64,000 bases of DNA from Halorussus salinus (lineage in GTDB: Archaea > Halobacteriota > Halobacteria > Halobacteriales > Haladaptataceae). The notes under the pieces were generated by a model. The model did not search any database, had not been told where the DNA came from, and saw only the letters and a program-made list of their open reading frames with translations. A program made the position numbers and the translations under genes. This document shows positions 35,834 through 45,854 of the stretch, one piece after another. Every line of letters begins with the position of its first letter. The stretch's first letter is position 1. The stretch spans positions 443,310-507,309 of the forward strand of contig NZ_ML974127.1 in the NCBI RefSeq assembly GCF_004765815.2, written 5' to 3'.

Positions 35834-36061
35834 ATGGACGAGTCGCTACTCGCCGACTGGGTGCGCCGGTCGCCGTCCCTCGACGCGATTCTCGATTCGA
35901 GCGCCCGGACCGCGATTTCCGACGACTTCGTACCCGACGACCTCCTCGCGGAGTGGCGCGACGTATTCGACGCCGACGCCGACTTCCGGGACCGACTCCG
36001 ATTCGCGGACTGGACTCCCGAGGAGACTTGCGACCGGCCGAACCCTTCCGAAATAATATAA
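35834..36061 (+). CDS. LanM N-terminus-like protein, probably a remnant
   Basis: A 75-residue open frame. Residues 3-60 align with residues 4-58 of the lanthipeptide synthetase encoded at 42294: SLLADWVRRSPSLDAILD against TLLADCAARSRPLTATLD, then PDDLLAEWRDVFDADADFR against PDDLLATWRDIFDGDDEFR. After that the frame ends in unrelated AT-rich sequence (stop 36059-36061). An AT-rich box (AAAATTATC at 35797-35805) is about 30 nt upstream, as in front of lanM, so it may be expressed. It lacks all catalytic parts. It is either the stub of a second lanM or a small protein that shares this domain. Confidence 0.65.
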   Translation: MDESLLADWVRRSPSLDAILDSSARTAISDDFVPDDLLAEWRDVFDADADFRDRLRFADWTPEETCDRPNPSEII

Positions 36062-38129: not shown

Positions 38130-39476
38130 CTACTGTTGGACGATGAACTGTCCGGCGATTTCCTTCACTTCGGCCATCGTCTTCGGTTCGTCCACGGCCT
38201 TCGGGAACGGCGACGAGAGGTTCAACTCGTTCAGGAAGCTGGCGTGGCGGGCCTCGACGCTGTGGATGCCGATGGCGGCCGAGAACACCTCGTCGTTCGA
38301 GACGGTCGGCGCGGCACCCTTGTACGCGGCGACGCCGGTGTTTTCGAGGGCCTTGGCGACCCCGAGGAATTCGGAGGGCGTCTCGTAGCCGAAGTCGTAC
38401 TCGGCCTCCTCGACCGGGGTGCCGCCCAACTTCTCGACGGTCGCGGCGAGCGCGTCGACGTGGGCCGCTTCGTGGTCGCCGACGGTCTGCAAGTGACCGG
38501 GCACCTTCATCCGCACGTCGTCGGCGAACGACGAGAGGGCGTCGGCACCCATCAGTTCGTCGTCGCTGAACTCCTCCATCCCCTCGCGGTAGAAGGCGTT
38601 TTCGAGGTGTTCGAGCGTCAGCGCGTAGTTCAGCACGTCCACGTCGCTGGTGTCGTCGTCGGCCTTCCGGTCGGGCGTCGCGCGCTCCTCGGGCGGGTTC
38701 GTCTCGTAGACGCTCGGGTCCACCTCGCTGGTGACGAACTGGCCCGCGATTTCGAGGACCTTCTCGACCGACTTGGCCTCGTCCACCGCGTTCGGGTACG
38801 GGGAGTCCGAGTTCACGAAGTTCAGGAAACTGGCGTGGCGGGCCTCGACGCTGTGGATGCCCGCGGCCGCCGCCAGCACGTCGTTGCTCACGACTTTCGG
38901 GGCCGCGCCAGCGTACGCCGCGACGCCGGTGTTTTCGAGGGCCTTCGCGGTCGCGAGGAACTCGGAGGGCGTCTCGTAGCCGAAGTCGTACTCGCCTTCC
39001 GGCACGGGGTCGCCGCCCAACTCCTCGACGGTGGCGGTGATGGCCTCGACGTGGGCGGCCTCGTGGTCGCCGACCGTCTGCAGGTACGCGGGCACGTCCA
39101 TCCGGACCTCCTCGCCGAACGACGAGAGGGCGTCGGCACCCATCAGTTCGTCGTCGGCGAACTCGTTCAGGCCCTCGCGGTAGAAGGCGTTTTCGAGGTG
39201 TTCGAGCGTCAGCGCGTAGTTCAGGACGGGCACGTCGGGGTCGGTCGGTGCCTCGGTGGTGGTCTCGTCGGTCGTCGTCTCCTCGGCGGTGGTCGTCATC
39301 ATTTCGGTCATCGTCTCGGTTGCGGTCGTCTCGCTTCCGGTGTCGTCGCCGCCGCCGGTACAGCCAGCGAGCGCGACTGCGCCGAGCGCGGAGGCTCCTC
39401 CGAGGAACGCGCGCCGCGAGCGAGTCGAGTCGGTGTCGGACGAGTCGTCGGCCGAGGTCGGGTCGTTTCGGGTCAT
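38130..39476 (-). CDS. Tat lipoprotein with two ferritin-like domains
   Basis: A 448-residue exported protein. The Tat signal RSRRAFLGGASALGAVALAGC carries a lipobox; here the key parts are SRRAFLGG and LAGC, predicting lipid anchoring. A Thr/Glu-rich linker is followed by two tandem ferritin-like domains (about 95-265 and 285-448) that are roughly 70% alike: each has LNYALTLEHLENAFYREG, TVGDHEAAHVEA/DA and IHSVEARHASFLN. The Glu and His residues in these motifs would bind a di-iron centre. Domains of this kind (Ferritin_2, DUF4439-like) may detoxify peroxide or bind iron outside the membrane. The duplication is internal and recent-looking. Confidence 0.88.
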   Translation of the reverse strand: MTRNDPTSADDSSDTDSTRSRRAFLGGASALGAVALAGCTGGGDDTGSETTATETMTEMMTTTAEETTTDETTTEAPTDPDVPVLNYALTLEHLENAFYREGLNEFADDELMGADALSSFGEEVRMDVPAYLQTVGDHEAAHVEAITATVEELGGDPVPEGEYDFGYETPSEFLATAKALENTGVAAYAGAAPKVVSNDVLAAAAGIHSVEARHASFLNFVNSDSPYPNAVDEAKSVEKVLEIAGQFVTSEVDPSVYETNPPEERATPDRKADDDTSDVDVLNYALTLEHLENAFYREGMEEFSDDELMGADALSSFADDVRMKVPGHLQTVGDHEAAHVDALAATVEKLGGTPVEEAEYDFGYETPSEFLGVAKALENTGVAAYKGAAPTVSNDEVFSAAIGIHSVEARHASFLNELNLSSPFPKAVDEPKTMAEVKEIAGQFIVQQ

Positions 39477-39695
39477 TGCTTCGCTTACGTCTACCCGCGA
39501 CACGCTCATGAGTATTTTCGCAACTTTGACATAATTCCGTCCGAGGAGTCCCGGAGGTCCGTCCGAACTCTCTCCCAATTTCGTCCGAAATCGAACGCCG
39601 GGAGTCGATTCGGCGGTCGGGACGAGCGCGACGAGTTCGGTTCGACCGATTGCGACGAGGGAAATGTTTGAATAGGGGGAGGGTGAGAGAGGGGT

Positions 39696-39845
39696 ATGCC
39701 GGACGAAGCGGCCGCGATAGAACGCTGTGCCTACTGTCGAGGGTACGTCCCCGTGACGCACGTCGATATCCCCGACCGACCGACGGACGCGCCGCTCCGG
39801 GCGCGAGTCGCAATCTGCGAAAAATGCCTCGGAGACGGTCTGTAG
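39696..39845 (+). CDS. 49-residue zinc-finger microprotein
   Basis: An open frame from ATG 39696 to TAG 39843-39845. It has two CxxC pairs, CAYC at residues 11-14 and CEKC at 41-44, spaced to bind one zinc, between which runs GYVPVTHVDIPDRP. A TTTGAATA box at about 39667-39674 gives a short leader. Small zinc-finger proteins with this layout are frequent and often important regulators in haloarchaea. Its target is unknown. Confidence 0.7.
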   Translation: MPDEAAAIERCAYCRGYVPVTHVDIPDRPTDAPLRARVAICEKCLGDGL

Positions 39846-42227: not shown

Positions 42228-42257
42228 TCGAATCTAAATTTTTCTCTTTCGTCAAAA

Positions 42258-42267
42258 TCATTAAACC
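42258..42267 (+). promoter_or_regulatory. TATA-like box upstream of lanM
   Basis: TCATTAAACC in an AT-rich run (42228-42265), centred about 31 nt before the lanM ATG, predicts a transcript starting close to 42289 with a leader of about 5 nt. It suggests lanM has its own promoter in addition to any read-through from the ABC genes. Confidence 0.5.
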
Positions 42268-42293: not shown

Positions 42294-45200
42294 ATGCGCC
42301 CGACGCTCCTCGCCGACTGTGCGGCCCGGTCGCGGCCGCTGACCGCGACGCTCGACCCGACCACCGATGGCTCGCTCCCGCCGGAGTTCGACCCCGACGA
42401 CCTCCTCGCGACGTGGCGCGACATCTTCGACGGGGACGACGAGTTTCGGGAACGACTCGACCTCGCCGACGAGAGCGTCGAGAGCGTCGAGAGTGTCCGC
42501 GAGCATCTTCGTGACGCTGGCTCGGGTTCCGGGACGCCCGACTCCGACGACTCGATTCCCGCGGCGCTCCGGACCGCCGAGGAGGTCGCGGACCGTGCGG
42601 TCGAACTCGACGCCGAGGCGGTCCGACCGCTCCGCGAGCGCCACGCCGACGCGCCGTTCGTGGACCTCCTCGGGCCGCTGGCCGCCGCGGTGTGCGAGTC
42701 GGTGTCGCTCGACGCCGACCACGACCCCGCGGCCGTCGAGTCGCTGGAAGATTGGCTGTTCGAGCGACTGACGACCACGTTCCAGCATCCCCTGTTCATC
42801 CTGTTCAAAACTCACCAACAGCGCGAGTACCCCGACACCGACTTCTCGGCGGCGACCGATTTGACCGCGGTCTACGACGAGTTCGTCGCCGACGTTCGGA
42901 ACGCCGACTACGAACCCGTCTTCGAGGAGTACCCCGTCCTGCTGGAACTGCTCGGGGTCGTCGCCGACCAGTGGCGCGGGATGGTCCGCCGACTCGACGA
43001 CCGACTCGCGGCCGACCGGGACCTCCTCTCGCGGACGTTCGGCGAGGGCGACGACGATGGCGACGACAGCGACGGCGAACCACTCGGCCGACTGCGCGAC
43101 GTGGCGACCTTCTCGGACGACCCCCACGGCGAGGGCGAAATCGTCCTCCGACTCGACTTCGAGTCCCGCTCGGTCGTCTACAAGCCCCGGTCGGTCGGCG
43201 GCGAGGCGGCCTTCGGCGACCTCCTCGACTGGACGAACCGCCACGCCGACGTTCCGGACCTGTACGCGCCGACCGCGCTCGACCGGGGTGACTACGGCTG
43301 GATGGAACACGTCTCCCACCGCCCCTGCGACTCGGCGGCCGCGGTCGGCCGATACTACGAGCGGATGGGCGCGCTGACCGCGCTGGCGTTTCTCCTCGGT
43401 TCGACCGACCTGCACCACGACAACCTCGTGGCGATGGGCGAACACCCCGTCATCGTGGACCAAGAGACCGTCCTCTCCCCGCGAGTCGGCTCCTCGAACA
43501 AGCCGGTCTCGCCCGCGATGGACTCGCTGTTGGGCGAGTCGGTGCTGAACACCGTCCTCATTCCCTTCACCGGCGAGACTGGCGGCCCGGAGGACGACCA
43601 GACGACCGGCGGGCTGACCGACCTCGCCGACGAACAGCGCCGGGAGAAGCGGCCGAACTTCCATCACCCAAACACCGACGCGATGGAGTTGACTTTCGAC
43701 AAGCCCTACCGACCCGGCGGCCGGAACCTCCCGCGGTTCGACGGCGAGGTCAGAGGAGTCTCCTCGAATCTCGCCGAACTGAAGCGGGGGTTCCGGGCGG
43801 TGACCGACGCGATACTCGCCGACCGCGAACGGTTCCTCGCTCCGGACGGACCGCTCGCCGCCTTCGAGGAGTGCCCGATACGCTACCTGCCGCGGCCGAC
43901 CAGCCACTACGCCTCGAAGCTCTCGGAGAGCCTCTACTCGTCGCAGTTGCGCTCGGGGACCGCCCGGTCGCTCGCGCTGGAGTCGCTGTACGCGATATTC
44001 GTCCCGCGCGCCGACGACGAGGCCAATCTCTGGAAGCTCGTCTCGACCGAGAAAGACGCCGTCCGGCGGCTCACGATTCCGCGGTTCACGGTTCCGGCGA
44101 CCGGCCGCGAACTGCGCGACGGGCGCGGGAACCCGCAGGGCGTGACCGTCGCGGAGTCGCCGCTCGACCACGCTCGCCGCCGCGTCTCGGAGTTGGACGA
44201 CCACCGCGTCGAAACTCAGCTTCGACTCGTGGACCTCGCGTTCACCGGGGCGACGGTCTCGGACCCCGTGGCCGCGCCCGACGACGACGAGAACTCGATA
44301 GTCGCCGCGGACTCGCCCCGAGAGGTCGTCTCGAACGTCGTGGCCCGGATAGACGACGCGACCACGCGCTACCCCGACGGGAGCCTCCGGTGGGCGGAGC
44401 TGGCGCGGTCGTCGCCGACCGGTCAGTTCAGCGTCCGGGAACCGACGCTCGACCTCTATCGGGGCCACGTCGGCGTCGGTCTCTTTCTCGCGGCGGTCGC
44501 CGCGGTCCGCGACGACGACGACCTCGCCGACCGGAGTCGGCGAATCCTGCGACCGGTCCGGTCGGCGGTCGAGGAGAGCGGCGACGGGACGGACGGGAGC
44601 GACGACGATGCCGAGGAGGTCGCCCGGTTGGGCCTCGGCGGGATGGACGGCCGGGGGTCGGTCGCCTACGGTCTCCTCGTCGCGGGCGACCTGCTGGACG
44701 ACGACGACCTCGTGGCGAGCGCCCGGACTGCCGCGGGGCTGACGACCCGCGAGGAGATAGCCGACGACCGAACGCTCGACGTGATGGCCGGGTCCGCGGG
44801 CGAACTGCTGGCGCAGTTGGCGGTCCACGAGCGAACCGGCGACGAGGCCGCCCTCGACCGCGCGCGGTGGTGTGGCGACCACCTGCTGGACGCCGCCGTC
44901 GAGACCGACGCGGGCTACCGCGTGCCGACTGCCGGGGACGGCGACGACGCCGACCGTCGGTTCGCCTTCGCGCACGGCGTCGGCGGCGTCGGCTACGCGC
45001 TCGTGAAACTCGCAGAAGTCACCGGCGAGGAGACCTACGCCGAGGTCGGACGCGACGCGCTCGCACTCGACGCCGAGTTGTGGCGACGCGACGGGAATCG
45101 CGCCGGGAGCGACGAGAATGCGACGATTTGGGGCTGGTGCAACGGCGCGGTCGGCGTCGGTACCGGTCGCGTGGCAGTGGCCGACGCGATGGCCGACGAG

Positions 45201-45590
45201 GACGGTGCTGTCGGCGAGGAGGACGCGGTTGGCGAAGGGGGCGCGGTCGGCGACTTGGGAGACCTCTCGGTCGTCCGCGAGGACCTGCGACCCGACCCGA
45301 GCCGCGAGGACTCGCTGTGCTGTGGGTCGGCGGGTCGGGCGCTGTTCCTGCTGGACGCGGGCGAGGTAGTCGGCGACTCGTCGCTCGCGGCCCGCGGCGA
45401 AGCCCTGTTCCGGCGGACCTTGGACCGCGGCCAGCGCGAGGGTCGGCTCCGACTGTCGAACCACCTGCCGATGCTCCCCCGCCTCGGACTGTTCACGGGT
45501 ATCGCGGGCGTCGGCTACGTCGCGCTTCAGTTGGAAGCGCGCGAGGCGGACGTAGACGTGCGACTGCCGAACGTGACGCGACTGGAGTGA
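42294..45590 (+). CDS. lanM: Class II lanthipeptide synthetase LanM
   Basis: A 1098-residue bifunctional enzyme that dehydrates Ser/Thr in a precursor peptide and adds Cys thiols to form thioether rings. The dehydratase domain (about 150-600) has the kinase-like residues: Lys297 in VVYKPRS, D372-x-H374-x-x-N377 in STDLHHDN, Asp389 in VIVDQETV, and R530/R534/T536 in IRYLPRPTS for phosphate elimination. The LanC-like cyclase domain (about 715-1098) has LYRGHVGVGLF, H894 in AHGVGGVG, C949 in GWCNG and the CCG motif C1009-C1010, giving three Cys zinc ligands rather than Cys-Cys-His. Length and all catalytic residues are normal, so it should be active. The peptide gene at 45667 converges on it. 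Confidence 0.95.
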   Translation: MRPTLLADCAARSRPLTATLDPTTDGSLPPEFDPDDLLATWRDIFDGDDEFRERLDLADESVESVESVREHLRDAGSGSGTPDSDDSIPAALRTAEEVADRAVELDAEAVRPLRERHADAPFVDLLGPLAAAVCESVSLDADHDPAAVESLEDWLFERLTTTFQHPLFILFKTHQQREYPDTDFSAATDLTAVYDEFVADVRNADYEPVFEEYPVLLELLGVVADQWRGMVRRLDDRLAADRDLLSRTFGEGDDDGDDSDGEPLGRLRDVATFSDDPHGEGEIVLRLDFESRSVVYKPRSVGGEAAFGDLLDWTNRHADVPDLYAPTALDRGDYGWMEHVSHRPCDSAAAVGRYYERMGALTALAFLLGSTDLHHDNLVAMGEHPVIVDQETVLSPRVGSSNKPVSPAMDSLLGESVLNTVLIPFTGETGGPEDDQTTGGLTDLADEQRREKRPNFHHPNTDAMELTFDKPYRPGGRNLPRFDGEVRGVSSNLAELKRGFRAVTDAILADRERFLAPDGPLAAFEECPIRYLPRPTSHYASKLSESLYSSQLRSGTARSLALESLYAIFVPRADDEANLWKLVSTEKDAVRRLTIPRFTVPATGRELRDGRGNPQGVTVAESPLDHARRRVSELDDHRVETQLRLVDLAFTGATVSDPVAAPDDDENSIVAADSPREVVSNVVARIDDATTRYPDGSLRWAELARSSPTGQFSVREPTLDLYRGHVGVGLFLAAVAAVRDDDDLADRSRRILRPVRSAVEESGDGTDGSDDDAEEVARLGLGGMDGRGSVAYGLLVAGDLLDDDDLVASARTAAGLTTREEIADDRTLDVMAGSAGELLAQLAVHERTGDEAALDRARWCGDHLLDAAVETDAGYRVPTAGDGDDADRRFAFAHGVGGVGYALVKLAEVTGEETYAEVGRDALALDAELWRRDGNRAGSDENATIWGWCNGAVGVGTGRVAVADAMADEDGAVGEEDAVGEGGAVGDLGDLSVVREDLRPDPSREDSLCCGSAGRALFLLDAGEVVGDSSLAARGEALFRRTLDRGQREGRLRLSNHLPMLPRLGLFTGIAGVGYVALQLEAREADVDVRLPNVTRLE

Positions 45591-45633
45591 GAAACGGCTT
45601 CGTCGTGGTCTCGGCGAGTCGAGGGGGAGCGAA

Positions 45634-45651
45634 CCGAGGAGAACTCCTCGG
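45634..45651. terminator. Hairpin between lanM and the precursor gene
   Basis: Perfect arms CCGAGGAG (45634-45641) and CTCCTCGG (45644-45651) with a 2-nt spacer lie between two convergent genes, 44 nt past the lanM stop. No T-run follows. It could act as a two-way terminator or RNA end-protection structure. Confidence 0.4.
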
Positions 45652-45666
45652 CGGTTCGACCGCGGC

Positions 45667-45819
45667 TCAGAACTCCATCTCGTCGTCTTCGCCCGAACTG
45701 CCACAGATGGGGTCGGTCGAGAGGTAGCAGTTGGTCTCGCCGATGACGGCGCGGTCGTCGGTTTCGGTGTGGGACGGTTCGTACTGCGATTCGAGCGACT
45801 GGCTGATGTCTCGTGCCAT
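45667..45819 (-). CDS. lanA: Candidate lanthipeptide precursor peptide
   Basis: A 50-residue peptide from ATG 45819 to TGA 45667-45669. Residues 1-26 (starts MARDISQSLESQYEPSHTE) are acidic and Cys-free, like a class II leader. The C-terminal part, from about residue 27, contains GETNCYLSTDPICGSSG with T29, C31, S34, T35, C39, S41 and S42, then an acidic tail ending EMEF. Two Cys and five Ser/Thr in a short stretch could form two thioether rings. There is no clear GG leader cleavage site; the processing point is unknown. A minus-strand CTTTTATTG (45846-45854) about 31 nt upstream predicts a very short leader. Its only strong support is the adjacent intact lanM. Confidence 0.75.
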   Translation of the reverse strand: MARDISQSLESQYEPSHTETDDRAVIGETNCYLSTDPICGSSGEDDEMEF

Positions 45820-45845: not shown

Positions 45846-45854
45846 CAATAAAAG
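45846..45854 (-). promoter_or_regulatory. TATA-like box upstream of the precursor gene
   Basis: Minus-strand CTTTTATTG within an AT-rich run (45836-45890), a composition shared with the lanM promoter region. Spacing predicts a transcript starting about 5 nt before the ATG at 45819. Confidence 0.55.

Follow-up and report, generated by a model that had tools for sequence, protein, structure and literature searches.

Pellan is a lanthipeptide from the pel cluster of Halorussus pelagicus RC-68, which has been expressed in Haloferax volcanii (PMC12144867). The peptide, described in 2025 and classed as a classical lanthipeptide, carries two dehydrations within Thr2, Cys4, Ser7, and Cys12, and its rings were termed "intertwined" (PMC12144867). 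The leader of its precursor PelA is cut after a single Gly, and the acidic tail of the precursor is missing from the reported core (PMC12144867). In H. volcanii, the pel cluster raised motility, rod shape, and flgA1 expression and did not stimulate growth; pellan was not detected in extracts of the wild-type strain that carries the cluster (PMC12144867). Archalans alpha, beta, and gamma and sallan have been reported from Halorussus salinus YJ-37-H (PMC10105419, PMC12144867), for which six lanthipeptide BGCs were described (PMC10105419).

We analyzed a 64,000-nucleotide stretch of haloarchaeal DNA, here called the window, in which a gene for a class II lanthipeptide synthetase (lanM) faces a short convergent gene (lanA). 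We consider it highly likely that these genes form a two-gene class II lanthipeptide system of the pellan (PelA/PelM) type, and a ring-shaped modified peptide is very probably made by this cassette. Gene structure, family, conservation, and genomic context can be read directly from the genomes compared (Table 1). A first-pass annotation had proposed a haloarchaeal class II lanthipeptide locus, which the LanM domains and the TIGR03897 match support. Its description of the genes was also exact: lanM is complete (ATG at 42294, stop ending at 45590 in the open reading frames of the window), a gap of 76 nt (45591-45666) separates the two stop codons, and the convergent 50-codon gene encodes T29, C31, S34, T35, C39, S41, and S42, with residues 1-30 (and hence the leader) free of Cys. 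The same annotation regarded the processing and the product as new, a claim that does not survive the earlier expression of PelA and publication of pellan (PMC12144867). The short precursor, the missing GG site, and the removed acidic tail are already features of PelA and pellan and are therefore not novelties.

Table 1. Positions of features of the lanM-lanA locus within the window
Feature	Positions	Strand	Basis
lanM, class II lanthipeptide synthetase, pel type, 1098 aa	42294..45590	+	TIGR03897; ortholog clade 100/100
LanM dehydratase domain DUF4135, residues 213-600	42930..44093	+	Pfam 327 bits; aligned to LicM2, 6st5
LanM cyclase domain LANC_like, residues 719-1085	44448..45548	+	Pfam 115.6 bits; zinc motifs WCNG, CCG
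Putative BRE/TATA of lanM, CAAAATCATTAAAC	42253..42266	+	Similar element at same distance in 5/5 orthologs
Perfect 18-nt palindrome between the convergent genes	45634..45651	.	Sequence and fold; presumptive terminator role
lanA, 50-residue precursor, PelA family, MARDISQSLESQYEPSHTETDDRAVIGETNCYLSTDPICGSSGEDDEMEF	45667..45819	-	In four genomes, homologs adjoin orthologous lanM
lanA leader, residues 1-27, ends AVIG	45739..45819	-	Blocks SLExEYEP, ETD, and VxG conserved in five equal-length copies; pellan core starts at next residue
Predicted core, residues 28-40, ETNCYLSTDPICG	45700..45738	-	Aligned with pellan core STGCYISDKPVCI; S/T29, C31, S34, P37, C39 conserved
Acidic C-terminal follower, residues 41-50, SSGEDDEMEF	45670..45699	-	Present in 6/7 copies, last residue Phe; outside published pellan core
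Putative archaeal TATA box of lanA	45847..45854	-	A/T box in same place in 7/7 copies; predicted start site

The product of lanM combines a DUF4135 domain and a LanC-like domain in a single chain, which is the LanM architecture, and it scores well above the cut-offs of Pfam and of TIGR03897 (586.9 bits for the latter, where the cut-off is 304). The motifs VVYKPRS, TDLHHDN, and VDQET of its DUF4135 domain align with the catalytic motifs of LicM2 (6st5), and comparison of motifs and alignments located both the dehydratase catalytic residues and the three cyclase zinc ligands. CCG takes the place of CHG as the second zinc motif, both here and in the majority of the haloarchaeal LanMs examined, and either form occurs in bacterial LanM relatives. 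The CCG form is the one present in the substrate-tolerant ProcM group, and a putative substrate tolerance of the window LanM may follow from it. About 6 kb upstream of lanM, a 75-codon open reading frame (35834-36061, + strand) resembles pel-type LanMs over their N-terminal 60-70 residues only and then ends. Its identity is 46-49% to the LanMs of genomes G010 and G005 and of the window and 38-39% to those of G013 and G001; judged from these alignments, it is likely the remnant of a second pel-type lanM.

The first-pass annotation had also assigned each gene an AT-rich promoter with a short leader. Comparison among relatives is consistent with this assignment, given that each of the seven lanA copies is preceded by an A/T-rich box, located around -34 to -28, and that a box resembling CAAAATxxTTAA lies equally far upstream of each of the five lanM genes (window and four orthologs). 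The 18-nt palindrome between the genes is possibly a two-way terminator for both. A 12-nt palindrome near the lanA start, CTCAATATTGAG, is not conserved among relatives.

The suggested search for homologous peptides beside other haloarchaeal lanM genes recovered convergent LanA genes in four other Halorussus genomes. Relatives with E values from 1e-19 to 1e-8 adjoin orthologous lanM genes in three of these, and a shorter, diverged copy does so in the fourth. Identities to the window LanA are 74 and 68% for the two copies of G010, 56 and 54% for the two copies of G005, and 54% for G013, all of them convergent to LanM orthologs; the LanMs of G010, G005, G013, and G001 are 77, 63, 61, and 59% identical to the window enzyme. 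The G001 peptide (39 aa) occupies the same place, begins similarly, and keeps a T-C...S..C core but has no acidic tail. Five equal-length copies share the leader pattern SLExxYEPxxxETD, V25, and G27, followed by C31, S34, P37, C39, G43, E47, and F50. Position 29 is Thr or Ser in all five, so the predicted ring residues are kept, contrary to the outcome that the annotation had named as refuting, and the remaining core positions vary freely. Codon-level selection tests on lanA, which are near saturation, likewise make the leader appear constrained and the core much less so. The gene thus belongs with PelA: its leader and core are homologous, the core has Thr/Ser2, Cys4, Ser7, and Cys12, and an orthologous LanM lies next to it.

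We also considered whether lanA is a chance open reading frame. This reading was ruled out because its relatives adjoin orthologous lanM genes, and the core pattern is rare: [ST]xCxxSxxPxC occurs seven times in 464,000 translated residues, and five of these places are the LanA-family precursors. Searches of the 50-residue peptide against Pfam, NCBIfam, and PHROGs matched no family, a search for the precursor on plasmids returned nothing significant, and sampling of 391 genomes across the class yielded no convincing LanA relative outside the genus.

Conservation identifies the convergent peptide as the substrate of LanM, as first proposed. It is very improbable that lanA is not the substrate and that this LanM modifies a peptide encoded elsewhere. 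The genome does encode six LanMs as well as further small peptides that contain Cys, and some LanMs elsewhere, such as ProcM, act on unlinked substrates, but the linkage of lanA relatives to orthologous LanMs extends over five genomes and more than one locus, and proof exists for PelA.

In the window, the pair lies between an ABC permease gene and hyuA, and the genes upstream encode an ABC ATPase and an ABC-2 permease. Among lanM-bearing relatives, this ABC pair upstream of lanM is common only to the window and G010. Six genomes that lack lanM have this permease directly before hyuA, with gaps of about 70-195 nt, and therefore the lanM-lanA site is empty elsewhere. The lanM-lanA pair of G005 lies beside hyuA, with the ABC genes absent; in G001 the pair and a hyuA homolog are on different contigs, and in G013 the pair is far from the nearest hyuA homolog. 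From this pattern of presence and absence, gain and loss of the cassette cannot be told apart. We considered whether the adjoining ABC transporter is an exporter or immunity system dedicated to the cassette and rejected it as a conserved part, because the ABC genes stand directly before hyuA in six genomes devoid of lanM and are absent beside lanM in three. Comparison of the orthologous loci revealed no LanT- or LanP-like gene conserved with lanM-lanA, nor any gene for a protease, exporter, or immunity function that consistently accompanies the pair. Nor is this a GG-type leader with a LanT partner, as the window leader ends in AVIG and the neighboring ABC genes lack a peptidase domain.

Two further observations concern this region. 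At the permease-hyuA site of another genome (locus L085 of G016), there is about 1.4 kb of other DNA, and the region upstream of hyuA is present in two copies; the permease-hyuA gap seems prone to insertions. Elsewhere in the window, the gene at 38130-39761 (- strand) encodes two Ferritin_2 stretches and, internal to the open reading frame, a Tat/lipobox-like start (RRAFLGG...AGC); its product is likely a duplicated ferritin-like lipoprotein.

Our LanM phylogeny joins the window and pel enzymes as sisters (100/100) and places the pel-type LanMs in a clade of five, whose long stem sets it apart from other haloarchaeal LanMs. The long stem hinted at a separate bacterial origin. This origin was unsupported once bacterial LanMs were added: with a modest sample of nine bacterial enzymes, the haloarchaeal LanMs form one group (100/99) in which the pel clade branches first. 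Scanning the genome_contigs set yielded only distant bacterial LanMs.

The host genome contains six LanC-domain loci. Beside four of them, precursors carry cores identical to those published for archalan alpha (GCGFTCSPFSSW), archalan beta (GLPSASMYSFEHCC), archalan gamma (CSCYTRICCDIDS), and sallan (CTRYSF), and these matches indicate that the genome is very probably that of the YJ-37-H strain or species. Given the six BGCs reported for that strain, the window cluster has probably been counted among them by antiSMASH. It is one of two loci in this genome for which we found no product described in the literature. The sixth LanM lies divergent from a 44-aa open reading frame (L012:11694-11828, + strand, contig C4), MSSDSLKDQIEAAYEQDERPVEAGTEQAGQMTVAFCGGHYTNLE, which has a single Cys and is a candidate precursor for that cluster. 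Near residues 9-20, leaders at L012, L013, L015, and the window share a stretch of the form [LIV]Ex[EA]Y (LESQYEP, VEAEYKH, IETEYAR, and IEAAYEQ) in precursors that are otherwise unrelated; by its recurrence, this stretch is possibly a common LanM recognition motif.

Because pellan was absent from wild-type extracts, the window locus may be silent or decaying, with intact genes whose product is normally not made. This would fit the metabolomics of H. salinus, which tied other clusters to products and not this one, as well as the lanM remnant 6 kb away and the patchy occurrence of the cassette in the genus. We regard such silence as rather unlikely, as both genes are intact and the promoter-like boxes and ring residues are conserved.

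For a functional cassette of the pellan type, the sites of modification and cleavage and the role of the product can be predicted from the pel system. The second precursor of G010 contains STGCYISDKPVCI, letter for letter the pellan core, a string that a full-text search found in one paper only; G010 was taken as H. pelagicus because of this identity. Thr2, Cys4, Ser7, and Cys12 of pellan align with T29, C31, S34, and C39 of the window precursor, and the pellan core starts after Gly27 and stops before the acidic tail. LanM would bind the conserved leader of the 50-residue precursor and would phosphorylate and then eliminate Thr29 and Ser34, and its LanC domain would add Cys39 and Cys31 to the dehydrated residues. 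The likeliest ring pattern would be nested, with T29-C39 around C31-S34, because by our own reasoning "intertwined" rings from two Ser/Thr and two Cys in T-C-S-C order allow only one overlapping pairing. Proteases encoded outside the cassette would cut after Gly27 and take off the acidic follower, and the ring peptide so released, ETNCYLSTDPIC(G), would be about 12-13 residues long. Further cuts within the rings could give a two-chain (diamino-dicarboxylic, DADC) product, as in larlan and archalan beta3. Archalan beta is matured in this way in H. salinus by proteases outside its cluster, but pellan was reported as a classical lanthipeptide, and we find a DADC product quite improbable here.

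By analogy with the pel cluster in H. volcanii, the released peptide may act on the motility and cell shape of its producer more than on killing neighbors; the pel role in motility was measured for cores other than that of the window and in a foreign host (PMC12144867). The product could instead be a lantibiotic that targets related haloarchaea. The same organism makes archalan alpha, which inhibits haloarchaea, and variable cores and duplicated precursors fit competition. We nevertheless rate a lantibiotic as rather unlikely: anti-haloarchaeal activity was reported for medb, cib2, and aln extracts, with pel not named (PMC12144867), pel raised motility without growth stimulation, and no conserved immunity gene lies alongside lanM-lanA.

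The experimentally founded pellan family, known since 2025, thereby gains an uncharacterized member. The new details are the presence or absence of the cassette between the ABC permease gene and hyuA, the deep isolated LanM clade, the conserved follower, and the lanM remnant. The minimal unit of the pel family comprises two genes, with which no protease, exporter, or immunity gene is consistently associated, and this unit and the follower kept in most copies bear on how archaeal peptides are processed and used. Since the host is very probably a strain with public LC-MS/MS data (MassIVE MSV000088831, PMC10105419), the predicted product can be checked directly. Computed [M+2H]2+ values after loss of two waters are 661.773 for ETNCYLSTDPIC and 690.284 for ETNCYLSTDPICG; loss of three waters gives 652.768 and 681.279. 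More speculatively, and with little confidence, pel-type cassettes might be a self-acting signal system confined to Halorussus, in which the Phe-ending follower is needed for modification or release and diverging duplicate cores provide different signals through one LanM.

Compared with known systems, the window LanM shares its two-domain architecture and motifs with bacterial class II enzymes (LicM2, 6st5; CylM, 5dzt; relatives from Nostoc and Acidobacteriota), and one Nostoc LanM has the same CCG. In contrast to those systems, the haloarchaeal LanMs are a separate group (100/99 with the sampled bacteria), and the pel cassette is without a LanT-type peptidase transporter. The archalan and sallan systems are likewise class II, and their leaders are short and acidic and also contain an ExEY-like stretch, but their LanMs are only about 30-37% identical to the window enzyme, their cores and ring patterns differ, and archalan cores run to the C-terminus, whereas the window LanA has a follower. 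Relative to PelA, the core is ETNCYLSTDPICG instead of STGCYISDKPVCI, begins with Glu rather than Ser, and is accompanied by the additional Ser/Thr residues T35, S41, and S42; therefore, the number of dehydrations and the cleavage may differ from those of pellan. There is also one precursor here and two in G010. The precursor is 68% identical to PelA over 50 residues (74% to the sister copy) and the LanM is 77% identical to that of pel, and the convergent arrangement, the flanking ABC pair and hyuAB, the ring residues, the leader end VIG, and the DDEMEF tail are shared.
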